Of a stretch of DNA of 64,000 bases, positions 31,305 through 59,375 are shown piece by piece; the first letter of the stretch is position 1; every line of letters starts with the position of its first letter. This DNA is from Marivita lacus. GTDB taxonomy: Bacteria; Pseudomonadota; Alphaproteobacteria; Rhodobacterales; Rhodobacteraceae. The stretch spans positions 312,632 through 376,631 of the forward strand of contig NZ_BMFC01000001.1 of assembly GCF_014637725.1 (NCBI RefSeq), given 5' to 3'. The notes under the pieces were generated by a model. It made no database searches and was not told where the DNA came from. It saw only the letters and a list, made by a program, of their open reading frames with translations. Both the position numbers and the translations under genes were made by a program.

Positions 31305-32135
31305 TCAGCGGCGTGCCGACCACGATACCGACGCGTGCTTGCGGGTATAGAATTCTCCCATCAAACCGATCATCAGCAGAGTCAGCGTGAGATAGACCAC
31401 GTATTCCCAGTTCGAGTTGCGCGGCACGTAATTGATGAACGCAAAGCCGCGCGCCTGATCGATGGTATGAAAGAGCGGATTCCAGTCGAAAATGGAGACC
31501 ATGAAGGATGGCAGCGAATTTGCCACGAACATCTTTCCCGACGCGATCATGTTGGCCCGCTTGTAGATCGTCGAGAGCGTGTTGGTCACCCCCGGAAGCC
31601 AGGGTTTCAGAGCCAGAAAAACCATCCCCACCGCACCGCCGGAAACCCAGGACAGCAACAGCATGCCCATCACGGGCGCAGGATCGACAATTTCTTTCAG
31701 AACGTAAGGATTAAGCGCAACGTCGTAGACGAAGAGGATGAAGAACACCGACAGAATCTGGATATACAGGACCGAGAGCATGCTCGCTGCGATCGAGATA
31801 AAGGTGTTCATCGGCGCATGCTGCATCATCGCGCTGGAGGGGCCTTCGCTGCCAAGCACCGCGCCAACGGCCTTGTTGTGGGTCATGAACATGAAGATGC
31901 CGGTGAGAAGGAAGATCACGAAATCGCCGCGCAGGGCCAGCCCCTTGAGGCCCATGATCGAGAACATGACATAGAAGAACAGCACGAACATCAGCGATTG
32001 AAACACGCTGACCGCGATCGACATGAAGGCGTTGCCATGCGACTTGCGAATTTCGCGGACCGTGTTGTGGTAGATCAGTTCGAGGATGCTGACGGCCGAG
32101 GACGCCCGGTTCGTCGGTACCGTTTTCTGGAACAT
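31305..32135 (-). CDS. ABC-2 type polysaccharide export permease (KpsM/Wzm-like)
   Basis: The 276-aa product has six predicted membrane helices; strong stretches lie at about 45-65, 74-90, 110-140, 155-175 and 240-260. An N-terminal cytoplasmic amphipathic segment ending KSHGNAFMS and the spacing fit the permease of capsule or O-antigen ABC exporters, which also carry the interfacial YHNTVREIRKSHG-like start. The C-terminal IDQARGFAFINY-P segment matches KpsM-type proteins. These exporters need a separate ATPase (KpsT/Wzt), but none lies within 20 kb. It is convergent with alkB and divergent from the glycan cluster starting at 32262. Confidence 0.85.
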   Translation of the reverse strand: MFQKTVPTNRASSAVSILELIYHNTVREIRKSHGNAFMSIAVSVFQSLMFVLFFYVMFSIMGLKGLALRGDFVIFLLTGIFMFMTHNKAVGAVLGSEGPSSAMMQHAPMNTFISIAASMLSVLYIQILSVFFILFVYDVALNPYVLKEIVDPAPVMGMLLLSWVSGGAVGMVFLALKPWLPGVTNTLSTIYKRANMIASGKMFVANSLPSFMVSIFDWNPLFHTIDQARGFAFINYVPRNSNWEYVVYLTLTLLMIGLMGEFYTRKHASVSWSARR

Positions 32136-32261: not shown

Positions 32262-33059
32262 ATGGACCATGATCAATTGACAACAACGATGCGTCGGCTT
32301 GCGCTTGAGGCTGGCGACAGGATCATGGAGATCTACGAGGCGGATGATTTCGAGGTGCGCTCGAAAACCGACGAAAGCCCCGTCACGGCAGCAGACGAGG
32401 CGGCGGATGCGCTGATCTCGGCCGGGCTGCGCGCTGCGTTTCCGGACGTCACGCTGATCACCGAGGAGCAGGCCGACACCCATGCGCTGGAGGCGCGAGA
32501 TTTCCTGATTGTCGATCCGCTTGACGGCACCAAGGAGTTCATTCACCGGCGCGGTGACTTTACGGTCAACATCGCGCTGGTCGAGAACGGTGTGCCGACG
32601 CGCGGCGTGGTCTATGCGCCTGCGAAGAACCGGCTGTTCTATACGGACGCTTCGGGGCAAAGCGTTGAGGAAACCGGGGATTTCGACAAGGAAACACCAG
32701 GTCCCACGACGCCGATCCGCGTGTCCGAGCCGGACACCGCCGCGCTGATGGTTGTCGCGTCGAAATCGCACCGGGATCAGGCGACAGATGATTATATCAA
32801 CCGCTATCCCGTCAAGGACAGCAGGAGCGCGGGTTCGTCGCTCAAGTTCTGCCTTGTCGCCACCGGGGAGGCGGATTTCTATCCCCGTCTGGGCCGCACG
32901 ATGGAGTGGGATACGGCTGCCGGGCATGCCGTTCTGAACGGTGCCGGCGGGCAGGTGTTGCGGCTGGATGATCTGCAGACGCTGACCTATGGCAAGCCGG
33001 GATTTGCAAACCCGTTCTTCGTTGCAACGGCACCGGGCATTGACCTGACCCCTGTCTGA
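32262..33059 (+). CDS. cysQ: 3'(2'),5'-bisphosphate nucleotidase CysQ
   Basis: Hydrolyses PAP, the by-product of PAPS-dependent sulfotransferases, and can also act on PAPS. The 265-aa product has the metal motifs TEEQ (67-70), DPLDGTKEFI (85-94) and a C-terminal WDTAAGHAVL; the KEF and SLKFCLVATGEADFYPR signatures match CysQ rather than generic inositol phosphatases. It heads the row of glycosyltransferase genes and sits eight bases from the next. Since a sulfotransferase ends the same row, PAP removal is a natural job for it here. CysQ is also needed for sulfate assimilation elsewhere. Confidence 0.93.
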   Translation: MDHDQLTTTMRRLALEAGDRIMEIYEADDFEVRSKTDESPVTAADEAADALISAGLRAAFPDVTLITEEQADTHALEARDFLIVDPLDGTKEFIHRRGDFTVNIALVENGVPTRGVVYAPAKNRLFYTDASGQSVEETGDFDKETPGPTTPIRVSEPDTAALMVVASKSHRDQATDDYINRYPVKDSRSAGSSLKFCLVATGEADFYPRLGRTMEWDTAAGHAVLNGAGGQVLRLDDLQTLTYGKPGFANPFFVATAPGIDLTPV

Positions 33060-33067
33060 CCCGCAGC

Positions 33068-34309
33068 ATGACAGCTCTCGGGATCAGTGTCATCATCGTC
33101 AACCGCGACAGGCCGGATTGGTTGATGCGGTGCCTGCGGGCGGTGGCGCAGCTTGATTATCCCCAGTTCGAGACGATTGTGGTGGCCTGTCCTGCCGGGG
33201 AAAAGGTCGCGCGACAGGCTGGATGGGCGCGGGTGATCGCGTGTGATCGTGCCAATATCTCTGCCGCCCGCAACATGGGTGTCGCAACTGCGCAAGGCGA
33301 GGTGGTGGCGTTTCTGGACGACGATGCGGTGCCGGAGCCCTTGTGGCTGGCGCAGCTTGCTAGGGTCTTTGATGATCCAGAGATTGCCCAGGCAGGCGGT
33401 ACGACGCTTGGCCGAAACGGGATTTCGGTTCAACACGGGGCTGCGCGGGTCGATGCCACCGGGCAGAGCTATGCTGCAGATACCTCCACGACGCAGCCGG
33501 TTGTCGTGCCACCGGTTGGGGATCAGGTCCCACGGCTGCATGGAACGAACATGGCGCTGCGGCGGTCTTTGGTTCTGGAGCAGTCGGGATTTGACGAACG
33601 GTTCGCCTTTTACCTTGATGAAACCGATCTGACCTACCGGATCGCGCGGGCGGGCGGGAAGACGATGTTCGTGCCCAAGGCAGTCGTTCACCACGCCAGC
33701 GGCCCGAGCCGCTACCGCGACGCAGAGCGCACGCCGCGCCATGTGTTCGAGATTGCAGCCTCTGCCGCGGTGTTCCATGGCAAGCACTGCCCAGTGGCCG
33801 ACCGGGACACGGCGCGAGTGACGTTTCAAGCCGAACGGCGCAGGTGGATCCTGCGGCACATGCAGCGCGGAACGTTGACGCCGGACAGGGCCTGGGCCCT
33901 GATCCGTGAGTTGGCTTCAGGATATGCTGCGGGGTGTGAGCGGTTGCAGATTGTGGCTTCATCAGGACCTGTGCGCGAGGCCACGGGGATCGAGATCAAA
34001 CCGTTGGTTTGTCGGGATTATTACCTTGATGCATCATCAGACGCCAAGGCCATCAGGACCGAGGCCAAAGCGTTCGCAGATCAGGGCCACCGTGTGACCG
34101 TGTTCGAATACCGGCGAAACGCGCGGTATCATCGGGTGACATACACGCCGGATGGCTACTGGCTCCATACCGGCGGGATATTCGGTCGCGAGTCACGGGA
34201 AGAGCCAGTGTTCCGACTGAGCAGCCACGCCGAGAGAGTGCAGCAAACGCTGTCCCGACTGCAGGGGATCCGATCAAAAAATCCGCGCCTGACCGCTCAT
34301 GAGACATAA
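33068..34309 (+). CDS. GT2-family glycosyltransferase with C-terminal extension
   Basis: The 413-aa product begins with the GT-A fold: SVIIVNRDRP (7-16), the ISAARNMGVATAQGEVVAF helix-strand, and the metal/nucleotide motif LDDD (83-86). A second acidic element, FAFYLDETDLTYRIARAGG, is the acceptor/catalytic motif. Residues beyond about 290 form an extra region of unknown role containing VTVFEYRRNARYHRVTYTPDGYW. Donor and acceptor sugars are not predictable. It lies eight bases after cysQ, and a 107-base gap with a new ribosome site separates it from galU. Confidence 0.88.
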   Translation: MTALGISVIIVNRDRPDWLMRCLRAVAQLDYPQFETIVVACPAGEKVARQAGWARVIACDRANISAARNMGVATAQGEVVAFLDDDAVPEPLWLAQLARVFDDPEIAQAGGTTLGRNGISVQHGAARVDATGQSYAADTSTTQPVVVPPVGDQVPRLHGTNMALRRSLVLEQSGFDERFAFYLDETDLTYRIARAGGKTMFVPKAVVHHASGPSRYRDAERTPRHVFEIAASAAVFHGKHCPVADRDTARVTFQAERRRWILRHMQRGTLTPDRAWALIRELASGYAAGCERLQIVASSGPVREATGIEIKPLVCRDYYLDASSDAKAIRTEAKAFADQGHRVTVFEYRRNARYHRVTYTPDGYWLHTGGIFGRESREEPVFRLSSHAERVQQTLSRLQGIRSKNPRLTAHET

Positions 34310-34416
34310 ATTCGACAAAACTCCTTATTATTTGGCTTGTGAAGCCGTACACTTAGGTGTGTGTCCGTGACGTAATCATCGCCGCGCAGTAAGACGCGAC
34401 AAGGAGGAGCAGCCCG

Positions 34417-35307
34417 ATGCGAAGAAAAGTAACCAAAGCGGTTTTCCCGGTAGCAGGGCTTGGAACGCGCTTTCTGCCTGCCACGAAATCTGTCCCCAAG
34501 GAGATCATGACTCTGGTCGATCGCCCCTTGGTGCAATACGCCATCGACGAGGCGCGCGCGGCGGGGATCAAGGAATTCATCTTCATCACCTCGCGCGGAA
34601 AAAGCGCGCTTGAGGATTATTTCGACGAGTCTCCCATTCTCGAGCGTGAGCTGCGCAAGAAGGGAAAGCTTGAGGCTCTGGAAGACCTGAAATCCACCAA
34701 CATGGAAAGCGGCGCGATTGCCTACATGCGGCAACACAAGGCGTTGGGTCTGGGCCACGCGGTCTGGTGCGCGCGGCGTCTGATCGGGGATGAGCCCTTC
34801 GCGGTGATGCTGCCCGACGACGTGATCTCGGCAGAAAAGCCCTGCCTCCAGCAGATGATCGAAGCCTACGAGGAAACCGGCGGCAACATGGTTGCGGCGA
34901 TGGAAGTGCCCCGTGACAAGACCTCGAACTACGGTATCCTCGACGTTAAAGAGGACATGGGGTCGATGGTGTCGGTCAAGGGCATGGTCGAGAAACCGTC
35001 GGTGGAAGATGCCCCGTCGAACCTTGCCGTGATCGGGCGCTATATCCTGCATCCGCAGGTTCTCAAGAACCTCAACAAGGTGAAGACCGGTGCGGGTGGC
35101 GAGATCCAGTTGACGGATGCCATTGCGCAGGAAATCGAGGGTACGGGAGTCTATGGCTACCGGTTCCGCGGTCAGCGTTTCGATTGCGGATCAAAGGCCG
35201 GGTTCCTGCAGGCAACGGTCGCCTTCGGGCTGGCGCGTGACGATCTCAAGGACGATCTGCGCAAGTTCCTGCACTCCGTCATGCAGATCGACAACGCAGC
35301 CGAGTGA
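34417..35307 (+). CDS. galU: UTP-glucose-1-phosphate uridylyltransferase
   Basis: Makes UDP-glucose, the donor for glucan and many exopolysaccharide reactions. The 296-aa protein matches the bacterial GalU family and shows the nucleotide loop AVFPVAGLGTRFLPATKS (8-25), KEIMTLVDRPLVQYAIDEA, the LGLGHAVWCAR sugar loop, and FAVMLPDDVI. AAGGAGGAG lies just before the ATG. The 107-base gap upstream is relatively AT-rich and may hold a promoter, although I could not settle one. Its place between a GT2 and a GT4 gene supports dedicated precursor supply. Confidence 0.96.
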   Translation: MRRKVTKAVFPVAGLGTRFLPATKSVPKEIMTLVDRPLVQYAIDEARAAGIKEFIFITSRGKSALEDYFDESPILERELRKKGKLEALEDLKSTNMESGAIAYMRQHKALGLGHAVWCARRLIGDEPFAVMLPDDVISAEKPCLQQMIEAYEETGGNMVAAMEVPRDKTSNYGILDVKEDMGSMVSVKGMVEKPSVEDAPSNLAVIGRYILHPQVLKNLNKVKTGAGGEIQLTDAIAQEIEGTGVYGYRFRGQRFDCGSKAGFLQATVAFGLARDDLKDDLRKFLHSVMQIDNAAE

Positions 35308-35359
35308 TCCATGTTGAGCCGCGACAGGTTGGGGCAACACAGCTTGTGGCGACAGCGCA

Positions 35360-36577
35360 TTGCAGACCATTGCACCTAGCCCCGCCGGGGCCCACCTTCT
35401 GGATGTCACCCGTACGGTTCGGCGCGCGGGGATGCGTCCGACCGGCATCGACCGGATCGAACGCGCCTATATCGACCAGCTGATCGACGATCCCGAGCCG
35501 CTGTTCGGGCTGGTGCGCACCAGGCTGGGGTTCCTGCTTCTGGACAAACACGGCTGTGCCCGGCTTTTGACCCATTGCGATGAACCTGTCTGGACGCAGT
35601 CGGACCTGATGTCCTGGGTGTCGCGGACCAAGGACGCTGCCCGCGCCAGAACCGAAAGCGGGCTGCGCAAGATCGCGCTCGACCGGGCTCTCCCGTCAGG
35701 GCTGACGCGGATGCTGAGGCGGCATCTGCCCCCCGGCACGGTGTATCTGAATGTCGGGCAGAGCCATTTCAACGACCGCGTGGTGCAGGCTTTGCGGGGC
35801 TGTGACGGGTTGCGGATCGGGGTCTATCTGCACGATACGATTCCGCTGGACTGGCCAGAGTTCCAGACGCCGAAAGCGCGGAAGGCGTTCAGCGCGTTCT
35901 TTGCCAAGGTGGATCGCCATGCCGATTTTGTCTTGTGCAATTCGCAGGACACCAGATCGCATGTTTTGTCGCGTGCGCAACACCTCGATCCCGAAAGGGT
36001 TCACGTTCTCCTGCCGGGACTACCGGATATCCGCTTGGGCGCCCCGCCCGAGGGGCCCTGGACCGGCAAGCCCTACTTTTTGGCCATCGGCACAATCGAG
36101 CCGCGCAAGAACATCGGTTTCCTGCTCGATCTCTGGGAGGATTTCACCGGCGACGACGACCCGCATCTGATCCTGTGCGGGCGCAGGGGTTGGATGAACG
36201 AGGACGTGTTCGCACGGCTGGACCAACGCCCGGCGCATGTGCACGAGCTTGCCGCGCTGGACGACGAAGCGATGTGGGGATTGCTCAGGGACAGCAACGG
36301 ATTGCTGTTTCCCAGCCGCGCCGAAGGGTTCGGATATCCGGCTCTTGAAGCTGCGCTGCTGGATGTGCCGCTGATTTGCAACCCTTTGCCGGTATTCGAG
36401 GAAGTGTTGGGGCGCATCCCTATTTACGCAACCGAATCAGATCGCTACGCTTGGCGCAAGGAAATCGAAGAACTGGCGCAAAGACGTCGGGGTCGAAGCG
36501 GTGAACAGAACGGGACGATGTCTTTAGAGACCCTGACTTGGCAGGCTCATTTCAATCAACTATTTACCGTTTTTTGA
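35360..36577 (+). CDS. GT4-family glycosyltransferase
   Basis: The 405-aa product contains an early region LLDVTRTVRRAGMRPTGIDR (13-32) shared with a subfamily of proteobacterial GT4 enzymes, then the GT-B C-terminal domain with FLAIGTIEPRKNIGFLL, LILCGRRGW and the donor-binding PSRAEGFGYPALEA motif, in which the two Glu residues bind the sugar nucleotide. The start is TTG at 35360; upstream the frame closes at 35295-35297, and the next ATG (35432) would cut away the LLDVTR signature. The ribosome site is weak. Retaining transferase using a nucleotide sugar; specificity unknown. Confidence 0.87.
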   Translation: MQTIAPSPAGAHLLDVTRTVRRAGMRPTGIDRIERAYIDQLIDDPEPLFGLVRTRLGFLLLDKHGCARLLTHCDEPVWTQSDLMSWVSRTKDAARARTESGLRKIALDRALPSGLTRMLRRHLPPGTVYLNVGQSHFNDRVVQALRGCDGLRIGVYLHDTIPLDWPEFQTPKARKAFSAFFAKVDRHADFVLCNSQDTRSHVLSRAQHLDPERVHVLLPGLPDIRLGAPPEGPWTGKPYFLAIGTIEPRKNIGFLLDLWEDFTGDDDPHLILCGRRGWMNEDVFARLDQRPAHVHELAALDDEAMWGLLRDSNGLLFPSRAEGFGYPALEAALLDVPLICNPLPVFEEVLGRIPIYATESDRYAWRKEIEELAQRRRGRSGEQNGTMSLETLTWQAHFNQLFTVF

Positions 36578-36620
36578 TACTTGCGCGTGGGTTGCGACCA
36601 CAAATACAGGCAGCTGACTC

Positions 36621-37631
36621 TTGGGAGTGGTGCAAAGATACGGTTTGAGGCTCCAGCGCAAACGCTGGAGATTTCGCGCGTTCAGGAAACGCCGCGAACT
36701 GAAACCTGTGTCCAATCGCACCGATCTGATCCGCAAGTCGGACATATTGCTGTTCAGCACCGTGCGGAACGAAGGCATCCGCCTGCCGTATTTCCTCAAA
36801 TACTACCGCGAAATGGGCATTTCCCATTTCTTTTTCGTAGATAACGACAGCACTGATGGCACTGCCGAGATGCTGGCGCAACAGCCTGACGTGTCTGTCT
36901 GGCATTCCCGCAAGAGCTACAAGCGGTCCCGGTTCGGTATGGACTGGATGAACTGGCTGCTGCGGCGGTACGGGCATGACCACTGGTGCCTGACCGTGGA
37001 CCCGGACGAATTCTTTGTCTACCCGTTCTGCGACTCGCGCCCCTTGCCCGCCCTGACGGATTGGCTTGATGCATCGTCGATCCGGTCGTTCAGCGCGATG
37101 CTGCTGGACATGTATCCCAAAGGCCGGATCGACGCGGTGCCCTATCAGGTCGGTCAGAATCCTCTGGACATCGCATCCTGGTTCGACTCCGGGAATTACA
37201 CGTTCAAGCGGAACCACCAACTGGGCAATCTGTGGATTCAGGGCGGACCACGGGCGCGCGTGTTCTTTGCCGACCGCCCCGAGGCAGCGCCTGCGCTGAA
37301 CAAGATCCCGCTGGTGAAATGGCATCACCGCTATGCCTATGCCAGTTCGACACACATGCTTTTGCCGCGCGGCCTGAACAAGGTCTATGACGAATGGGGG
37401 GGCGAAAAGGCGTCGGGCGCTCTGCTGCACACCAAGTTCATCAGCACCTTCAACGAAAAGGCGATGGAAGAACTCAAGCGCCGAGAACATTACGCGGGCA
37501 GTCTTGAATACGTGGCCTATGCCAACGCGCTGCAGGACAATCCGGAACTGTGGTGCAAATGGTCTGAAAAATACATCAACTGGCGGCAGCTCGAGATCCT
37601 TGGCCTGATGTCGATGGGCAACTGGGCGTGA
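36621..37631 (+). CDS. GT2/GT92-like glycosyltransferase
   Basis: The 336-aa product has a basic N-terminus, then KSDILLFSTVRNEGIRLPYF (39-58), the typical opening of glycosyltransferases that act on a chain from nucleotide sugars; FFFVDNDSTDGT (70-81) provides the first acidic motif and WCLTVDPDEFFVYP the second. The remainder has VKWHHRYAYASSTHML with a possible catalytic His. Start codon is uncertain: TTG 36621, GTG 36627 and GTG 36630 are all in frame and none has a strong ribosome site. The gene overlaps the next by four bases (GTGA), so translation is coupled to the branching enzyme. Confidence 0.85.
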   Translation: MGVVQRYGLRLQRKRWRFRAFRKRRELKPVSNRTDLIRKSDILLFSTVRNEGIRLPYFLKYYREMGISHFFFVDNDSTDGTAEMLAQQPDVSVWHSRKSYKRSRFGMDWMNWLLRRYGHDHWCLTVDPDEFFVYPFCDSRPLPALTDWLDASSIRSFSAMLLDMYPKGRIDAVPYQVGQNPLDIASWFDSGNYTFKRNHQLGNLWIQGGPRARVFFADRPEAAPALNKIPLVKWHHRYAYASSTHMLLPRGLNKVYDEWGGEKASGALLHTKFISTFNEKAMEELKRREHYAGSLEYVAYANALQDNPELWCKWSEKYINWRQLEILGLMSMGNWA

Positions 37632-39334
37632 GCATCGGGATCATCATGCTGGCGCACACCGCGCTGCACCGGGCCGAGCAGGTCGCGCGTCACTGGACCA
37701 AGGCGGGCTGTCCGGTGGTGATCCATGTCGATCAGGTGGTGTCTGCCAAGCGCTACAGGATTTTCACAGACCGGCTGAGCGATGATCCGATGATCCGCTT
37801 TTCCCGCAGACATCGCTGTGACTGGGGCACCTGGGGGCTGGTCGCCGCCAGCCAGGACGCGAGCGAATTGATGCTGGCCGAGTTCGAAGAGGTGAGCCAT
37901 GTCTACCTGACCTCGGGTGCGTGCCTGCCGTTGCGCCCGGTTCAGGAACTGATCGACTACCTCAAGGCACGCCCCCGCACCGATCACATCGAAAGCGCGA
38001 CAACGGCGGATGTGCCCTGGACCGTGGGCGGGCTGGATGAAGAGCGGTTCACCATGCGGTTCCCGTTCTCGTGGCGGCGCAACCGGTATCTGTTTGACCG
38101 CTTTGTCGAATTGCAGCGCAGGGTCGGCTACAGGCGCAAGATCCCCGATGGGCTGACACCGCACATGGGCAGCCAGTGGTGGTGCCTCACGCGGCAGACA
38201 CTGGCCTCGATCCTCGAAGACCCGAAGCGCAAGGTGTATGATCGGTATTTCCGCCATGTCTGGATTCCCGATGAAAGCTATTTCCAGACATTGGCGCGGC
38301 TCTATTCCACCAATATCGTCAGCCGGTCGCTGACCCTGTCGAAGTTCGATTTTCAGGGCAAGCCGCACATCTTTTACGACGATCACCTGCAATTGCTGCG
38401 CCGCTCGGACTGTTTCGTGGCGCGCAAGATCTGGCAGAATGCGGACCGGCTGTACGAGACCTTCCTGTGCCCGAAGCCCGGTGAACTGAACCTGCAGGAA
38501 CCAAACCCCGGCAAGATCGACCGCATCTTTGCCAAGGCGGTGGATCGGCGGACGCGCGGGCGGCCGGGGCTTTACATGCAAAGCCGCTTTCCCAACGAGG
38601 ATTGGGAAAACGGTGTGACAGCGGCCAAGTATTCGGTGTTCCAGGGGTTCACCGAGCTTTTCACCGATTTTGAGCCGTGGCTGGCTCAGGTCACAGGCGC
38701 GCGGGTGCATGGGCACCTGTTTGCCCCTGACCGGGCGCATTTCGCGGACGGTCAGACCGTGATGAACGGCGCGCTGTCGGACAATGCGACCTTGCGCGAT
38801 TACGATACCAAGATGTTCCTGACCAACCTGCTGTGGAACACGCGCGGTGAACGTCAGTGTTTTCAGCTTGGGCCGCACAGCACGTCGCACGTGGTCTGGG
38901 ACATTGCCAAGGACCCCAACGCGCAGGTGTCGGTCATCAGCGGTGCCTGGGCGATCCCGCTGTTTCAGTCGAACCGCAGCTTTGCAGAATTGCGGCGCGA
39001 GGCGGCAAAATTGCAAAAGATCGAAACCGATATGCTTGACGCGTTGCGGTCGCCCTATTCCAAGTGCCGCAGGCGGATCTGGACGATGGCGGAATTCATC
39101 GAAAGCCCGATGGAAGCGATTCAGGTGATCGTCGACGAAATCGGATCGCAGCCCAACCGCCTCTTGACCCAGGCGCCCAAGATGGTCGATCTGAGCGGCT
39201 TTGGCCAATTTCTGCAGAATCTCAAGAACCAGGGGATGCATCCCTATCTCATGGGCGATTTCCCGGCGGATCCGATTGCCCTCGGACCCGTCCGCGATGC
39301 GCCGCGCCCCCGGCCCTATCTTGTCAAGAAGTGA
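37628..39334 (+). CDS. GT14 (core-2/I-branching type) glycosyltransferase with DUF5927-like C-terminal domain
   Basis: The 568-aa product begins IGIIMLAHTALHRAEQVARH, the start of the Branch (GT14) domain, with HVDQ, CDWGTWGLV and YLTSGACLPLR motifs (about 34-105), then GSQWWCLTRQT and WIPDESYFQTL (about 179-222), which match eukaryotic-type beta-1,6-GlcNAc branching and xylosyltransferase enzymes. Residues about 290-568 form a separate region that I associate with the roseobacter DUF5927 family; its role is unknown. The GTG start overlaps the previous stop. Inferred job: adding a beta-linked branch sugar to the glycan made by this cluster. A paralogue with shared motifs is at 56839-58416. 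Confidence 0.85.
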   Translation: MSIGIIMLAHTALHRAEQVARHWTKAGCPVVIHVDQVVSAKRYRIFTDRLSDDPMIRFSRRHRCDWGTWGLVAASQDASELMLAEFEEVSHVYLTSGACLPLRPVQELIDYLKARPRTDHIESATTADVPWTVGGLDEERFTMRFPFSWRRNRYLFDRFVELQRRVGYRRKIPDGLTPHMGSQWWCLTRQTLASILEDPKRKVYDRYFRHVWIPDESYFQTLARLYSTNIVSRSLTLSKFDFQGKPHIFYDDHLQLLRRSDCFVARKIWQNADRLYETFLCPKPGELNLQEPNPGKIDRIFAKAVDRRTRGRPGLYMQSRFPNEDWENGVTAAKYSVFQGFTELFTDFEPWLAQVTGARVHGHLFAPDRAHFADGQTVMNGALSDNATLRDYDTKMFLTNLLWNTRGERQCFQLGPHSTSHVVWDIAKDPNAQVSVISGAWAIPLFQSNRSFAELRREAAKLQKIETDMLDALRSPYSKCRRRIWTMAEFIESPMEAIQVIVDEIGSQPNRLLTQAPKMVDLSGFGQFLQNLKNQGMHPYLMGDFPADPIALGPVRDAPRPRPYLVKK

Positions 39335-39337
39335 CGC

Positions 39338-40771
39338 GTGGCTGTGGGGTTTGATCTTTTCGTCGTTTTCGCGGAGATGCGCACCGGGTCCAATCTGCTC
39401 GAGGATTACCTGAACCAGATCAATGGCATCACCTGCCACGGCGAAGCGTTCAATCCGAATTTCATCGGCTATCCGAACCGGGACGAGATCATGGGTGTCT
39501 CCCAGCGCCAACGCGAGGACAACCCGGATCGGTTGCTGCGGGCGATCCGCGGTGGGACCGAGGGTCTGGGCGGGTTTCGCTATTTCCACGATCACGATCC
39601 CCGGGTTCTGGCACCGATCCTGTCGGACCCGCGCTGCGCCAAGATCATCCTGACGCGCAACCCTCTGGACAGCTACATCAGCCTCAAGATCGCGCGGGCG
39701 ACCGATCAGTGGAAGCTGACCAACGTCAAGAACCGCAAGGACGCGCAGGCACATTTCGACCTGCATGAATTCGAACGGCATCTGGGGCAAACACAGGCCT
39801 TCCAGCTCGAGATCATGCGGGCGTTGCAGGTGACCGGCCAAAGCGCATTCTACATCGGCTATGACGATCTGCACGACACCGAAGTGCTGAGCGGACTTGC
39901 GCATTGGCTCGGAGCAGCGGCGGCACCCGACGGGTTTCAGACCAATCTCAAACCACAGAACCCGCAACCCCTGTCGGACAAGGTGGCAAATTTCGGTCAG
40001 ATGGAAACCGCGCTGCGGACGCTTGACCGGTTCGACCTGACGCGCACGCCGAACTTTGAGCCAAGGCGCGGGCCCGTCGTGCCGGCCTATGTTGCCTGCG
40101 CGCGCCATCCTCTGCTGTTCATGCCGATCCGGTCAGGGCCGGAAGAGCAGGTGAAGGCGTGGATGTCGGCGCTGGACGGAGGCGCATCAGACCTGCTGAC
40201 GGATTTCAACCAGAAAAGCCTGCGGGGCTGGTTGCAGGATCATCCCGGTCATCACCGGTTCACCGTGCTGCGCCATCCTCTGGCGCGGGCACATGCCGCT
40301 TTTTGTGACAAGATCCTGAAAACCGGACCCGGAAGCTTTGCCAAGATACGCCACCAGTTGGTCCGGTTTCACGGCCTGAACCTGCCCGAAGACCCGAACG
40401 ATCCCGCCTATGATCTGCGCGCACACAGGGCGGCATTCGAGGGGTTTCTGACCTTCCTGCGGTCAAACCTGAACGGCCAGACCAGCATCCGGGTGGATGC
40501 GCATTGGGCCAGTCAGGTGACCTGCCTGCAGGGCATGTCGGACTTCTGCCTGCCGGACCGCGTGCTTCGAGAAGAGGATTTGCCGTCGGTGCTGGGCCAG
40601 ATGGCCCGCGACCTTGGCGTCGCGCGCGTACCCGAGTGGGATCACGCCGGTGACCCACTTGCCGACCGGCTGGCTCGCATCCATGACAGCGCCCTCGACC
40701 GGCTGTGCCGCGACGCCTATCCGCGCGACTACATGATGTTCGGGTTTTCGGATTTCAGCGCCCCAAGCTGA
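39338..40771 (+). CDS. Double-domain sulfotransferase
   Basis: The 477-aa product holds two sulfotransferase-like halves. The first (about 5-235) has a complete PAPS 5'-phosphosulfate loop EMRTGSNLL (13-21) and a 3'-phosphate loop LTRNPLDSYISLKIA (104-118), like Stf0/NodH enzymes. The second (about 245-477) matches the sulfotransferase-2 family in FTVLRHPLARAHAAFCDKI, DAHWASQ and the end YPRDYMMFGF. In that half the 5' loop reads PIRSGPEEQ instead of PKxxxST and the usual Ser of RxxxRxxS is Ala, so it may be inactive. The GTG start is three bases after the GT14 stop. It should transfer sulfate from PAPS to a surface glycan or glycolipid. Confidence 0.83.
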   Translation: MAVGFDLFVVFAEMRTGSNLLEDYLNQINGITCHGEAFNPNFIGYPNRDEIMGVSQRQREDNPDRLLRAIRGGTEGLGGFRYFHDHDPRVLAPILSDPRCAKIILTRNPLDSYISLKIARATDQWKLTNVKNRKDAQAHFDLHEFERHLGQTQAFQLEIMRALQVTGQSAFYIGYDDLHDTEVLSGLAHWLGAAAAPDGFQTNLKPQNPQPLSDKVANFGQMETALRTLDRFDLTRTPNFEPRRGPVVPAYVACARHPLLFMPIRSGPEEQVKAWMSALDGGASDLLTDFNQKSLRGWLQDHPGHHRFTVLRHPLARAHAAFCDKILKTGPGSFAKIRHQLVRFHGLNLPEDPNDPAYDLRAHRAAFEGFLTFLRSNLNGQTSIRVDAHWASQVTCLQGMSDFCLPDRVLREEDLPSVLGQMARDLGVARVPEWDHAGDPLADRLARIHDSALDRLCRDAYPRDYMMFGFSDFSAPS

Positions 40772-44749: not shown

Positions 44750-45449
44750 TGTAATGCTATAGCGCTTTACGGCTGTTCCGCCTGAAACCCTGTAACAATT
44801 GACCCCACCATTGTCTCGCACGCGGCAACAATCTGTTTTTTCGCAGTAGATTGGCGACTTTACGCGACTGTCAACGTTGACGAAACAATCCGGTGGACAT
44901 GTCTCGAACTGGTACTGCTTCGTGACGAAAGTAACGGTCAATCGTGCAGCCGCAGCATGATTGATCACGCAAAGTGTCCAATTTGCAGGTGCGGGCGCGT
45001 TCGGCCACAGCGCTCGGCACTGGCTGGACCCTTCGTTTTGCCCCAATTCAGCCATTTTAGGGCACAGGATGAAAAAGTGATTCAATGGCGCAATTTGCCT
45101 GAAATCCGGACGACCCGCAGCGCACCCAGAAGAAGATTACGTATTGGGAATACACGCAAAAGTTTTTCCCCGTTCCAGAAGTTGACCGGAATAAGGCGGA
45201 AGGTCATAAAGAGGTCATGCTTTGGCAGGCCACAATCCTGCCGCATTATCGTAAGGCACTTGGGGGCTGGTGCTTCTTCTAGGAGTTGCGTGAGGGTTCG
45301 TCTGCTGAAGTCTGCCACATAGTCTGAAAATCTGAATACCGGTCCCACGGCCGAGTTCAATGTTCGCGGCAACATGCTGTGAGCAAACAACGATTTCATG
45401 CTTGAAGCGTCCAGCGGCGACCCGATCGCATAGGGTCAACAGGGTCTCA

Positions 45450-46139
45450 ATGACACTTCACATTCGCCAGCCACGTCCGCACGCCAATATCGAAACTCTG
45501 GTCAACGCGGCTTTTTCGAAGACCGAACCGACAAGCATCTACCGTGACCGCTTCAAGCGTGTCCTCGACGTCACTCTTGTGATCATGGCCGCACCCGCCG
45601 TGCTTCTGGTGCTTGGGATTTGCGCTCTTCTGATCGCCCGCGATGGCGGATCGCCCTTCTATCATCAAAACCGCATCGGCCAGTTCGGCAAGACCTTCAA
45701 GATGTGGAAACTGCGCAGCATGGTGGCGAATGCCGATGCTGCACTCGAACACCACCTGAATGCCAACCCGGCGGCCCGGATCGAATGGAACCGCAACCAG
45801 AAACTCCGTCATGATCCCCGGATCACAAAGGTAGGCCAGATGCTGCGCAAGACCTCGCTGGACGAGTTGCCGCAGCTGTGGAACGTGCTGAAAGGCGACA
45901 TGTCGCTGGTCGGCCCGCGCCCGATGATGGTGGATCAGCAGGCGCTCTATCCCGGTTCTGCCTATTACGCGCTGCGTCCCGGTCTGACCGGCTTCTGGCA
46001 AGTGTCCGTCCGCCACGAAAGCAGCTTTGCCGAGCGTGCGACCTACGATGCGGAATATCTGCGCAAGGTCACCTTTGCTCAGGACATTTCGGTGATGCTG
46101 AAGACCGTCAGCGTCGTGACCAAAGGCACCGGCTGCTGA
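45450..46139 (+). CDS. ExoY-like undecaprenyl-phosphate sugar-1-phosphate transferase
   Basis: Initiates exopolysaccharide synthesis by moving a sugar-1-phosphate to undecaprenyl phosphate at the inner membrane. The 229-aa product has one membrane helix (about 41-63) following a basic YRDRFKRVLD, then the bacterial sugar transferase core: PFYHQNRIGQFGKTFKMWKL, the catalytic KTSLDELPQLWNVLKGDMS and GPRPMM with the conserved Asp-Glu, and RPGLTGFWQVSVR. The short form with one helix matches ExoY/WecP-like enzymes. ATG 45450 was chosen over 45360, whose extra N-terminal part resembles no family. Its stop abuts the stop of the next gene. Confidence 0.92.
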   Translation: MTLHIRQPRPHANIETLVNAAFSKTEPTSIYRDRFKRVLDVTLVIMAAPAVLLVLGICALLIARDGGSPFYHQNRIGQFGKTFKMWKLRSMVANADAALEHHLNANPAARIEWNRNQKLRHDPRITKVGQMLRKTSLDELPQLWNVLKGDMSLVGPRPMMVDQQALYPGSAYYALRPGLTGFWQVSVRHESSFAERATYDAEYLRKVTFAQDISVMLKTVSVVTKGTGC

Positions 46140-56838: not shown

Positions 56839-58416
56839 TCAGTCTGCAAACAAATGGTCTGTGCGCGCAATCTCGCGCGCCTGTTCCGGCGCGATCGACA
56901 GGAAGCTGGCCAGCGCGGTTGCATTGACCTCGATGGAATCTTCCTCGCGGATGCGCAGGTGGTTTTCGAACTCGGCGTCGCGGATGCGGTCGCTTTCATG
57001 CACGATATCGTTGCGGATCGTCGGCAACAACCGCTCAAGCGTTTCCTGCGGCGTGCGTTCTCCCGCCAGCCCGACCCGCATCGCATGTCCGGTCAGGTAT
57101 GCATCCGTGAAGGTGCAGTTGATCTCGAGCAGGCGGGTGGTCGCGCGGTCGCGGCAGAAATCCTCGAGCAGGTCAAGATTGCCGGGGTCCATGCAGACCA
57201 CCATGCGATCCGAATCGAAATAATCGAACAGCATCCGCATCAGGGACCGGCGGTGCCTGTGCCGTTTGCCAAGGGTCGACTGGATGCCCCCCATGTCCGG
57301 CAGGTCGGTCTGTTCCTCGTTGAACAGGTATTCGATGCAGGGCACGTTGGTCTGCTGACGGATGCGCGACACCAGACGCTTGGCCACGTGCCATTTCTTG
57401 CACACGACGATCAGCAATTCGCGTTCGCGCCCCAGCGTGCTTTCGGTTTCCCAGAACCGCGGCGCGAACCGGCGACCGATGCGCCCCTTGCCGGTCAGGA
57501 ACTTGTAGAGCGACCGCCCCTCGTTCGAGATCTGGAAATTCACGCCCTTCGCCGAATAAAGCGACCCGAGCCGTTCCTTGAGTTGCAGCGCCTCGGGGCT
57601 GATCTTGCGGGCAAAGAGAAAATCCTGGCTGAGCAGCAGGTCGAAGTGATCGTTGTAGAACGTCACCGGCATCCCGTAATCCGAGAACATCAGGAAGGTC
57701 AGCGTGCGGCACTCGATCTCGTGTTCCGAAACGAGGTGGCGCACCAGCGTCTGAAAGAACGTCTCGTCGGGAATCCACGTGGTGCTGAAGAACCGCTTCA
57801 CATCAGGGCGCTGCCTGATGAAATCAAGGATCGCCTCGATCGTGCGCCGCCGCAGGCACCACCACTGGCTGCCGATCTGGATTTCCAGATCCTCGGGGAT
57901 CTTGCGGGTCAGCCCCAGCTTTCGCTGCAGGTTGAAGCTCTGGTAAAAGATCGTCTTTTGCGTCCGCTCGTTAAAATAGTGGCGGTAGATCAGCCGCTCT
58001 TCCTTCATCCCGGTCTTGATCCAGTCCGAGGCAAAGAAATCGAAGCTTTCGATGAAATCGGCGTCCACCCTGTCAAGGTAGGCATGCGCGTATTCAGCCG
58101 TCTTGATCGCCTGGCAATCGCCTGAAAGCATGTAGAAATGCGTGGCCCGCGGAAATGCCGCAACCGCCGCTTCCACCGCGTAGAGCGTGGCCTGCACCAG
58201 CGACCACTCGCCCCAGCCGCATTTGATTCTGCGTTTCGCGAAGGTCACGTTCGGATTGTCGGACAGGGCGGTGTGGATCGCCGTGAAAGCCGCCGCATCT
58301 GCACGCGCGTCGAAGTGGATCGAAATGAAATCTCCGACCGCCGTCAGGCTCAGCGCCTGTCGGATGATCGCGTCCGGGTCCTTGTGACACAGGAGTATGA
58401 AGGCAATATTCGCCAT
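56839..58416 (-). CDS. GT14 (core-2/I-branching type) glycosyltransferase with DUF5928-like C-terminal domain
   Basis: The 525-aa product opens with NIAFILLCHKDPDAI, has the HFD motif, CGWGEWSLVQATLYA and FYMLSGDCQAIK (about 33-103), then GSQWWCLRRRT and WIPDETFFQTL. These motifs are shared almost word for word with the GT14 protein at 37628, so the catalytic half is homologous. The C-terminal half (about 290-525) differs and contains LLIVVCKKWHVAKRLV and MVVCMDPGNLDLLEDF; I associate it with the DUF5928 group. It may bind a nucleotide or acceptor. Divergent, over 59 bases, from a sulfotransferase gene. Confidence 0.83.
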   Translation of the reverse strand: MANIAFILLCHKDPDAIIRQALSLTAVGDFISIHFDARADAAAFTAIHTALSDNPNVTFAKRRIKCGWGEWSLVQATLYAVEAAVAAFPRATHFYMLSGDCQAIKTAEYAHAYLDRVDADFIESFDFFASDWIKTGMKEERLIYRHYFNERTQKTIFYQSFNLQRKLGLTRKIPEDLEIQIGSQWWCLRRRTIEAILDFIRQRPDVKRFFSTTWIPDETFFQTLVRHLVSEHEIECRTLTFLMFSDYGMPVTFYNDHFDLLLSQDFLFARKISPEALQLKERLGSLYSAKGVNFQISNEGRSLYKFLTGKGRIGRRFAPRFWETESTLGRERELLIVVCKKWHVAKRLVSRIRQQTNVPCIEYLFNEEQTDLPDMGGIQSTLGKRHRHRRSLMRMLFDYFDSDRMVVCMDPGNLDLLEDFCRDRATTRLLEINCTFTDAYLTGHAMRVGLAGERTPQETLERLLPTIRNDIVHESDRIRDAEFENHLRIREEDSIEVNATALASFLSIAPEQAREIARTDHLFAD

Positions 58417-58475: not shown

Positions 58476-59375
58476 TTGAATAAACCGACTTTCTTTGATT
58501 TTTTGTTTACGTTACCGGACGACAAGAGCCCGGAACGCGGCTGGAGGCGGCAGAACATGGGATTTCCCGGAACGTGGATGACCGAGAGCGAGAGCATGGT
58601 CTATCGCGTGGTCCCCAAATGCGCATGCTCGACCATCGGTCAGATCATGTTCTATTCCGACCATGGCGAATTCTTCGACGGCGACATCCATGATGCGCAA
58701 TCCGGCCTGCACAAATGGGCGCTGGATCAGTCGAAAGATCCGATCACCAAGCGCATTCAGGCGCAGGACACCTATGCCTTCACCTGCGTGCGCAACCCCT
58801 ATACCCGCATCCTGAGCTCGTTCTTCGACAAGATCTGCGGCATCCAGCGCAACGGCAAACGCTACCGGGGCAACCTTGTCCCGCTGTTGATCCAGAAATA
58901 CGGGATCGAGGTCGGTGGCGAGGATGGCAAGCAGGAGTTCGATCAGGTCAAAAGCTTCCGGAGATTCCTTCTCTTTGCCCGCGACACCATCCGCTGGCGG
59001 CGTCCGATGGACCCGGACATTCACTGGTCGGCCATGTCGGGTCATATCAGCACCTTCATCGTGAATGGCGGCCGGTACGACAACATCTTCTGGACCGAGA
59101 CGTTCAACGACGGCATGGCCAATGTGCTCAGGCATGTCGAGACGAAGCAGACGATCGACCTCGCGACGATTCCGCGCTTCAACGAAAGCGAAGGGCACGG
59201 CCCGAAACGGGCGCATCCGGTCGAGGAGTATTTCGACGATCTGTCGATGCATCTGATCTACGAAATCTACAAAAAGGATTTCGAGCTGTTCAAATACGAT
59301 TTCGAAAACCCGGGCAACAAGATGCCCATCGGCGAGATCGACCTCGACGAGGTGCACGCCAAGCTGGGGGACTGA
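58476..59375 (+). CDS. Sulfotransferase family 2 protein
   Basis: The 299-aa product carries a 5'-phosphosulfate loop VVPKCACSTIGQ (45-56), a 3'-phosphate loop CVRNPYTRILSSFFDKI (104-120) with the conserved Arg106 and Ser114/115, a DIHWSAMSGH segment and the family end YKKDFELFKYDFE. These resemble eukaryotic HNK-1/chondroitin 4-O-sulfotransferases, and the second half of the protein at 39338. Likely moves sulfate from PAPS to a sugar hydroxyl. No membrane anchor is evident. The start TTG at 58476 is weak; the next ATG is at 58557. It stands divergent from a branching transferase. Confidence 0.85.
   Translation: MNKPTFFDFLFTLPDDKSPERGWRRQNMGFPGTWMTESESMVYRVVPKCACSTIGQIMFYSDHGEFFDGDIHDAQSGLHKWALDQSKDPITKRIQAQDTYAFTCVRNPYTRILSSFFDKICGIQRNGKRYRGNLVPLLIQKYGIEVGGEDGKQEFDQVKSFRRFLLFARDTIRWRRPMDPDIHWSAMSGHISTFIVNGGRYDNIFWTETFNDGMANVLRHVETKQTIDLATIPRFNESEGHGPKRAHPVEEYFDDLSMHLIYEIYKKDFELFKYDFENPGNKMPIGEIDLDEVHAKLGD

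Follow-up and report, generated by a model that had tools for sequence, protein, structure and literature searches.

A conserved GT14 and sulfotransferase gene row of Rhodobacterales as a likely part of a dispersed Kps-type capsule system

The stretch analysed, in the following called the window, comprises 64,000 nucleotides of the Marivita lacus contig NZ_BMFC01000001.1 (312,632 to 376,631), and all positions are given relative to it. It contains a row of genes on one strand, from cysQ to a two-domain sulfotransferase, with a permease gene upstream in the opposite direction. The genes are as follows.

31305..32135, minus strand: KpsM-like ABC-2 capsule permease, divergent from the row (31.3 bits with the VexB model, cut-off 297)
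32262..33059, plus strand: cysQ, 3'(2'),5'-bisphosphate nucleotidase, removal of 3'-phosphoadenosine 5'-phosphate (PAP) (TIGR01331 259 bits, cut-off 229)
33068..34309, plus strand: GT2 glycosyltransferase, variable position (PF13641 65.5 bits)
34417..35307, plus strand: galU, UTP-glucose-1-phosphate uridylyltransferase (TIGR01099 346 bits, cut-off 327)
35360..36577, plus strand: GT4 glycosyltransferase, variable position (PF00534 43.6 bits)
36621..37631, plus strand: Glyco_tranf_2_4 glycosyltransferase ('GT92-like'), constant core (PF13704 127.8 bits)
37628..39334, plus strand: GT14 (Branch) glycosyltransferase with C-terminal DUF5927 (PF02485 58.8 bits, PF19349 510.7 bits)
39338..40771, plus strand: two-domain sulfotransferase (Sulfotransfer_2 Pfam match at residues 299-471)

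The open reading frames and the family scans agree with the gene order given in an earlier reading made from the letters alone, here called the sequence-only reading. The tight coupling it described among the last three genes is also found in the coordinates: the PF13704 gene and the GT14 gene share four bases (37628-37631), and three bases (39335-39337) separate the GT14 gene from the sulfotransferase gene. It had named the product of the PF13704 gene GT2/GT92-like. The assignment as a glycosyltransferase holds, the GT92-like part of the name has the PF13704 match as its only basis, and no further Pfam family was found for this protein at E 0.001. The G+C content along the window stretch is ordinary (0.59-0.62), and the row is therefore unlike a recent island.

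The gene order is strongly conserved in related genomes, where the sequence-only reading had proposed looking for it. The comparison includes 100 loci. Twenty of them belong to selected Rhodobacterales genomes, and the others are the best 80 contigs among the matches listed in one scan, a subset that leans towards Marivita relatives; the counts for these loci concern the genes queried. The GT14 loci nearest to that of the window have 91-95% identity (the seven closest among the matches listed). Of the genes queried, the sulfotransferase is the first one 3' of GT14 in 98 of the 100 loci. In the 97 loci with enough flank the PF13704, GT14 and sulfotransferase genes are found together in 95 and ptsN lies downstream of the row in 86, with lpt genes next in most. 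In the 90 loci with at least 8.9 kb upstream, cysQ was found upstream of GT14 in 89, the divergent permease in 89, galU in 84, galE in 65 and kdsB in 60; one locus with no permease upstream (L023) was scored as a miss for both cysQ and permease. The PF13704 enzyme, GT14 and the sulfotransferase thus form a constant core, while the GT2 and GT4 positions vary, a second PF13704-type gene occupying them in other loci and GT2 not being found in a minority. Because the same order recurs in 100 loci the row is more than a chance arrangement. The proposal of a coherent glycan locus stands, as the lack of a conserved order that was to refute it was not observed, and the row is better conserved than the author of the sequence-only reading could know.

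In 149 genomes of the order, DUF5927 was matched in 144, one match being a remnant, and the profile of the row sulfotransferase in 142 at E 1e-30. A class-wide draw of 289 genomes gave four matches to DUF5927, all in the same family; the other 285 gave none, and 20 listed ones among them carry other family labels. Single in-frame stops within the match were seen for the sulfotransferase in G022 and G098 and for DUF5927 in G048, G133 and G134, and may come from sequencing errors, phase variation or decay of the gene.

The GT14 protein has a Branch domain (PF02485) above the cut-off, and DUF5927 makes up its 300 C-terminal residues. In the structure model (mean predicted local distance difference test score, pLDDT, 78.0) residues 1-283 align with murine C2GnT-L (2gam_D; Z 25.2, root mean square deviation (rmsd) 2.5, 265 aligned) and the model aligns with xylosyltransferase 1 (6eja, 6eje; Z 22.6-23.5), with an identity to the metazoan structures of 15-17% in the fold alignment. 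E216 of an 'IPDE' motif is invariant in 21 of 21 GT14 sequences, an alignment in which the short GT14 loci L003-L022 were left out. It pairs, in a very weak alignment block, with the Glu of the C2GnT 'SPDE' motif, and the Glu at this position is presumably the catalytic base of GT14 enzymes. By analogy with these enzymes the row protein may form beta-linked branches. The idea that DUF5927 may be a further degenerate sulfotransferase came from its likeness by eye to the row sulfotransferase; a profile comparison of the two proteins gave a probability of 2% (P 0.024), and a structure search barely reaches DUF5927.

The row sulfotransferase (structure model with mean pLDDT 84.2) consists of two different halves. 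Residues 3-230 of the predicted structure resemble Stf0 (1tex_D; Z 12.8, rmsd 3.8, 195 aligned), and residues 6-153 match 9vki, deposited as the lipopolysaccharide (LPS) sulfotransferase NodH (E 1.6e-12). This half keeps MRTGSN and LTRxP, which we take to be the 5'-phosphosulfate and 3'-phosphate binding motifs for 3'-phosphoadenosine 5'-phosphosulfate (PAPS), in 20 of 20 aligned sequences (the window and 19 of 20 loci, L039 being left out). In the C-terminal half, HP..R of the 3' site is kept in all 20 sequences, the 5' loop was not recognised in these 20, and the half is related to a second sulfotransferase encoded at 58476 (E 3e-6). Because no such loop is recognisable and this kinship is present, the C-terminal half is probably a degenerate Sulfotransfer_2 copy. 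Of the suggestion that the row is involved in sulfation, the part that concerns the enzyme is supported by the intact PAPS motifs, and the part that places sulfate on the glycan is a prediction. An APS (adenosine 5'-phosphosulfate) kinase for the supply of PAPS is encoded at C1:155582-156040 of the window's own genome (G000). CysC was considered as a sign of PAPS made for the row sulfotransferase and was found uninformative, since 148 of the 149 genomes have an APS kinase match; G038, without such a match, still has the sulfotransferase and DUF5927, which speaks mildly against the link.

A second pair of GT14 and sulfotransferase genes, divergent from each other and outside the row described in the sequence-only reading, is found in the window 16 kb from the row.

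56839..58416, minus strand: second GT14 with C-terminal DUF5928 (PF02485 75 bits, PF19350 455 bits)
58476..59375, plus strand: second sulfotransferase, full-length Sulfotransfer_2 (PF03567 131 bits)

The two GT14 proteins are 35% identical over 339 columns, chiefly in the GT14 domain, and no solved chain matched the second sulfotransferase at E 0.1. DUF5928 was matched in 142 of the 149 genomes, including one remnant. Its gene is often distant from the row elsewhere, on other contigs or megabases off, and in the one other genome checked (L161) it has the same sulfotransferase neighbour, 87% identical over 183 residues. Since DUF5928 tracks the row across genomes though often unlinked to it, the DUF5928 GT14 probably acts in the same pathway as the row.

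The sequence-only reading had assigned export of the product to the permease at 31305. A permease profile of 20 sequences (the window and 19 loci; L023 is absent) has 8tsh_C as its best solved match (E 1.8e-9), followed by 6m96 (E 4.1e-4). For KpsE of one relative (L165) the best match is 8tsh_E (E 4.1e-28), a chain deposited as capsular biosynthesis protein, so that the row permease and this KpsE have their best matches in two chains of a single solved complex. The kpsT and kpsE genes adjoin in five of the five relatives fetched for KpsE, and kdsA is also there in four of them. When the permease profile was run against the five kpsT-kpsE stretches, of 16-17 kb each, no permease was found at E 0.01; L024, the control, gave 451 bits. 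That kpsT-kpsE has no permease nearby in five of five relatives fits the row permease as the absent KpsM. A conserved gene of 277 amino acids beside kpsT-kpsE was tried as a second permease and ruled out when it was identified as kdsA (421 bits). In the window's own genome (L137) KpsC, a Poly_export protein (KpsD/Wza-like) and KpsS are encoded side by side, on another contig than the row (PF05159 257 and 167 bits, Poly_export 61 bits; KpsS model 181.9 bits, under its cut-off of 600). The search of KpsS against solved structures gave ubiquitin chains only, taken as spurious. The KpsE model TIGR01010 matches 146 of the 149 genomes, none above the curated cut-off. Kps ABC-transporter capsule systems require neither polymerase nor flippase. 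The sequence-only reading had remarked that both are missing from the row, and general family scans of nine row and flank proteins, made with no genome-wide search, named neither; as the permease resembles part of a Kps ABC-transporter system, their absence from the row would be explained and no puzzle.

Natural losses show which genes go together. Intact DUF5927 is missing in six of the 149 genomes, five with no match (G060, G085, G094, G110 and G141) and one with a 35.5-bit remnant (G075). Each of the six bears a different genus label, and G060 and G075 have relatives within their respective genera that retain the module. The row sulfotransferase is missing in all six and in one of the 143 others (G059; Fisher p 5.1e-10), and DUF5928 is missing or a remnant in all six and in two of the 143 (G098, G134; p 2.0e-9). 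A strong permease match was found in none of the six and in four of four controls (386-460 bits), with weak matches in G110 (42 bits) and G141 (40.8 bits; L142, dedicated profile search). The exporter role given to the permease is supported by its match to 8tsh_C and by the lack of a strong match in six of six genomes without intact DUF5927. KpsE is missing in four of the six loss genomes and in none of the 143 others, and the same numbers apply to strong KpsC/S matches (PF05159; Fisher p 7.6e-7 for each). KpsE is absent in G060, G075 and G085 and weak in G094 (2.1e-8), while PF05159 is absent in G085 and G094 and weak in G060 (3.6e-5) and G075 (1.7e-6). These weak matches, and the remnants of G075 (DUF5927 35.5 bits, DUF5928 34.4 bits), were scored as lacking. 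In the unadjusted tallies over the 149 genomes KpsE has no match in three and PF05159 none in two, all of them among these six. The loci L138-L140, L143 and L148 are left out of the analysis. APS kinase, used as a control, had no association with DUF5927 loss (Fisher p 1). Co-loss with the gene transfer agent was also considered, since a capsule is the receptor of this agent in Rhodobacter capsulatus, and rejected: TIGR02218, which we take to be a family associated with this agent, is found in five of the six genomes and in 129 of the 149, a result that bears on co-loss and not on a function as receptor. The window's own genome has four TIGR02218 copies (C2, C12, C20, C33), more than most of the 149 genomes.

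The sites of loss have kept some of the neighbouring genes. In G085 kdsB-galU-galE remain between alkB and ptsN, and the permease, cysQ, glycosyltransferase and sulfotransferase genes are gone. In G094 cysQ-kdsB-galU remain beside ptsN, and in G075 cysQ-kdsB-galU-galE remain, while PF13704 and GT14 survive there as gene fragments. The cysQ-kdsB stretch is left with galU and GT4 in G110 and with galE in G141, the usual flanks being outside the piece examined in both. Thus cysQ stands beside kdsB in four of five informative loss genomes and is gone from the site in G085; the G060 contig is uninformative. Both kdsB and galU are still at the site in three (G075, G085 and G094) of the four genomes that lost KpsE and strong KpsC/S. 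The idea of kdsB as a capsule-specific gene of the row was dismissed, since all 12 genomes tested, the six lacking intact DUF5927 among them, have kdsB, each with a single strong match that lies under the TIGR00466 cut-off. Because cysQ, kdsB, galU and galE are retained where the permease, PF13704, GT14 and sulfotransferase genes are lost, they are considered resident genes. The sequence-only reading had placed cysQ and galU in the row that builds the glycan; a role specific to the glycan does not agree with their being mostly kept in genomes without the module. Both cysQ and galU, and in relatives kdsB and galE, probably also serve other pathways.

Taken together, the PF13704 enzyme, the GT14-DUF5927 protein, the sulfotransferase and the permease are likely to be the assembly, sulfation and membrane-export part of a dispersed Kps capsule system (ABC-transporter, group-2-like) of nearly all Rhodobacterales. 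The acceptor, the linkage, the branching, the sulfate on the glycan and the glycan structure that belong to this assignment are predicted features. KpsS and KpsC make the linker of 3-deoxy-D-manno-oct-2-ulosonic acid (Kdo) of Kps capsules, according to the available part of PMC12220298. In the mechanism proposed for the row, KpsS and KpsC, encoded elsewhere in the genome, would provide a lipid with the Kdo linker, and the glycosyltransferases of the row would extend the chain on this Kdo-lipid in the cytoplasm. The GT14 enzymes, judged from their animal counterparts, would attach beta-linked sugars, possibly as branches. Sulfate from PAPS would be added by the sulfotransferase through its N-terminal domain, and CysQ would clear the resulting PAP. 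The row permease would pair with the distant KpsT and KpsE, and together with the KpsD/Wza-like protein these would carry the finished glycan to the surface.

In animal proteoglycans a GT14 xylosyltransferase and carbohydrate sulfotransferases act on one glycan. A bacterial parallel to this logic, in which one ancestral, order-defining sulfated capsular glycan is made with two GT14 enzymes (DUF5927 and DUF5928), each with its own sulfotransferase, is a tentative extension that we regard as possible and somewhat doubtful. In this view the glycan, which unlike ordinary capsule loci varies hardly at all between genera, would be a surface signature common to a major marine group, rather than a serotype.

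Several observations weigh against the capsule assignment. The permease is far under the VexB cut-off (31.3 against 297 bits), and the kps genes other than the permease are unlinked to the row, kpsC, kpsD and kpsS being on another contig and kpsT and kpsE away from it; linkage of glycan and kps genes is usual in known clusters but is not essential to the mechanism. Of the family-type kpsE, the window's own genome shows no more than two pieces, each at a contig end. A kpsT/kpsE pair of another type lies on contig C19 of this genome next to a separate permease with a weak match (32 bits), which indicates a second export system. G110 and G141 have no row and yet have KpsE and the top-scoring PF05159 matches of the set, so that Kps is independent of the row in these genomes; in G141 a separate, divergent permease accompanies genes like kpsT/kpsE, and both genomes may carry another capsule. 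The co-loss events are small in number, and Fisher's test takes no account of phylogeny. The sulfotransferase alone is missing in the genome G059 and the contigs L114 and L122, and since GT14 is kept there sulfation is dispensable. As to C19 itself, it is 61.5 kb long and has a ParA-type ATPase, a weak ParB_N match, kdsA, kdsB and the second kpsE/kpsT pair (L147, L167); Kdo synthesis genes of the strain may thus be on an extrachromosomal element.

The surroundings of the row would also suit a role in LPS, in which the glycosyltransferases and the sulfotransferase make a sulfated core or outer core. The genes ptsN, raiA and lptBAC adjoin the row, with ptsN downstream and lpt next in the proportions given above, kdsB lies within it in 60 of 90 loci, and the solved protein matched by the sulfotransferase is named as an LPS sulfotransferase. 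The genomes that lost the module are at variance with this role: kdsB is retained (12 of 12 tested), lptBAC is still at the site in G085 and G094, and what G060, G075, G085 and G094 have lost instead is KpsE and strong KpsC/S. We regard modification of LPS as unlikely.

An explanation closer to the Kps capsule is that the Kps-type transporter exports a short, defined sulfated glycolipid or cap and not a polymer, the alternative nearest to the small oligosaccharide of the sequence-only reading. The glycosyltransferases are few, the constant core is two of them and one sulfotransferase, and there is little variation across genera, unlike in usual capsule loci. The co-loss of KpsC/KpsS and KpsE suits a capsule better, and the exchange of GT2 and GT4 for a second PF13704-type gene resembles variation of chain type, which makes a short product improbable.

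The sulfotransferase might instead sulfate a lipid or a protein and merely travel with the glycosyltransferases. Stf0-type sulfotransferases act on a glycolipid sugar, and G059, L114 and L122 keep the glycosyltransferases without the sulfotransferase. Among the 149 genomes, however, the sulfotransferase (E 1e-30) never occurs without a DUF5927 match, and its place directly after GT14 among the queried genes in 98 of 100 loci also argues against another target, which we consider very unlikely. That the row is an old chance neighbourhood of housekeeping genes with no joint pathway is hardly credible, although its flanks are housekeeping genes and cysQ, kdsB, galU and galE are kept in various sets once the rest is lost, since the permease, GT14, the sulfotransferase, the mostly unlinked DUF5928 and the distant Kps genes are lost together.

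Downstream of rnd the window encodes a short WbaP-type sugar-phosphate transferase (45360-46139, plus strand; 259 amino acids, catalytic part only), which many close relatives have in the same position. One Salipiger contig (L054) shows a single inversion on the downstream side of the row that spans ptsN to the sugar-phosphate transferase.

Few parts of bacterial genomes usually vary as much as capsule loci. If the Kps capsule assignment is correct, DUF5927 and DUF5928, two families of unknown function, would be given a pathway. This abundant marine order would share a sulfated coat that may play a part in attachment and in relation to phages and grazers, and its genomes would be a source of GT14 and sulfotransferase enzymes from bacteria for use in glycan synthesis. 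The capsule idea can be tested directly by means of the natural losses of the module. Among open-licence literature no paper was found on DUF5927, DUF5928 or the row, from which unpublished status cannot be claimed, and none that ties a sulfotransferase to a capsular polysaccharide of Rhodobacteraceae, a sulfated O-polysaccharide to Roseobacter or NodH to the sulfation of LPS.

Comparison with known systems places the individual enzymes and the module as a whole. The row GT14 has its fold and the 'PDE' Glu in common with the metazoan GT14 enzymes C2GnT-L (2gam) and xylosyltransferase 1 (6eja, 6eje), but carries C-terminal DUF5927, or DUF5928 in the second protein, in place of the animal domains. 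The N-terminal half of the row sulfotransferase shares fold and motifs with the Stf0/NodH type (1tex, 9vki), and differs in that a further half, Sulfotransfer_2-like and to all appearance degenerate, is fused to it.

Within the same order, Rhodobacter capsulatus has a capsule encoded by rcc01081-rcc01086 that serves its gene transfer agent as receptor; the wza/wzb/wzc export genes are listed with it, and strain 37b4 of the species lacks the cluster (PMC10218006). By this description, namely the wza/wzb/wzc listing and the absence from strain 37b4, it is probably a different cluster from the row.

The marine Cobetia marina KMM 1449 has a sulfated capsule of published structure and a cluster with kpsETMD, kpsSC, cysQ, glycosyltransferases and a sulfotransferase, and thus resembles the module in its kps exporter, kpsSC, cysQ, glycosyltransferases and sulfotransferase (PMC11766843, in the portion available). 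In contrast to the dispersed Rhodobacterales genes, the Cobetia cluster has about 70 genes together, with cysN/cysC and cysD, and is called group III; the same portion names no GT14 or DUF5927 and compares among Cobetia strains only (PMC11766843). Vibrio sp. KMM 8419 likewise has ABC (kps) export, several sulfotransferases, PAPS genes and a sulfated capsule, but with GT2, GT4, GT61 and other glycosyltransferases, with no GT14 named in the part of the source at hand, and with kpsC absent (PMC11641403). According to that part the Vibrio clusters vary between related strains, whereas the Rhodobacterales core is constant across the order (PMC11641403). The sequence-only reading had held that a bacterial counterpart of sulfated eukaryotic glycans would be new biology, which is too strong, as sulfated kps capsules with sulfotransferase genes have been published for Vibrio and Cobetia. 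Sulfated Kps capsules are thus already known, and the Rhodobacterales module is a variant with GT14 and with order-wide constancy.

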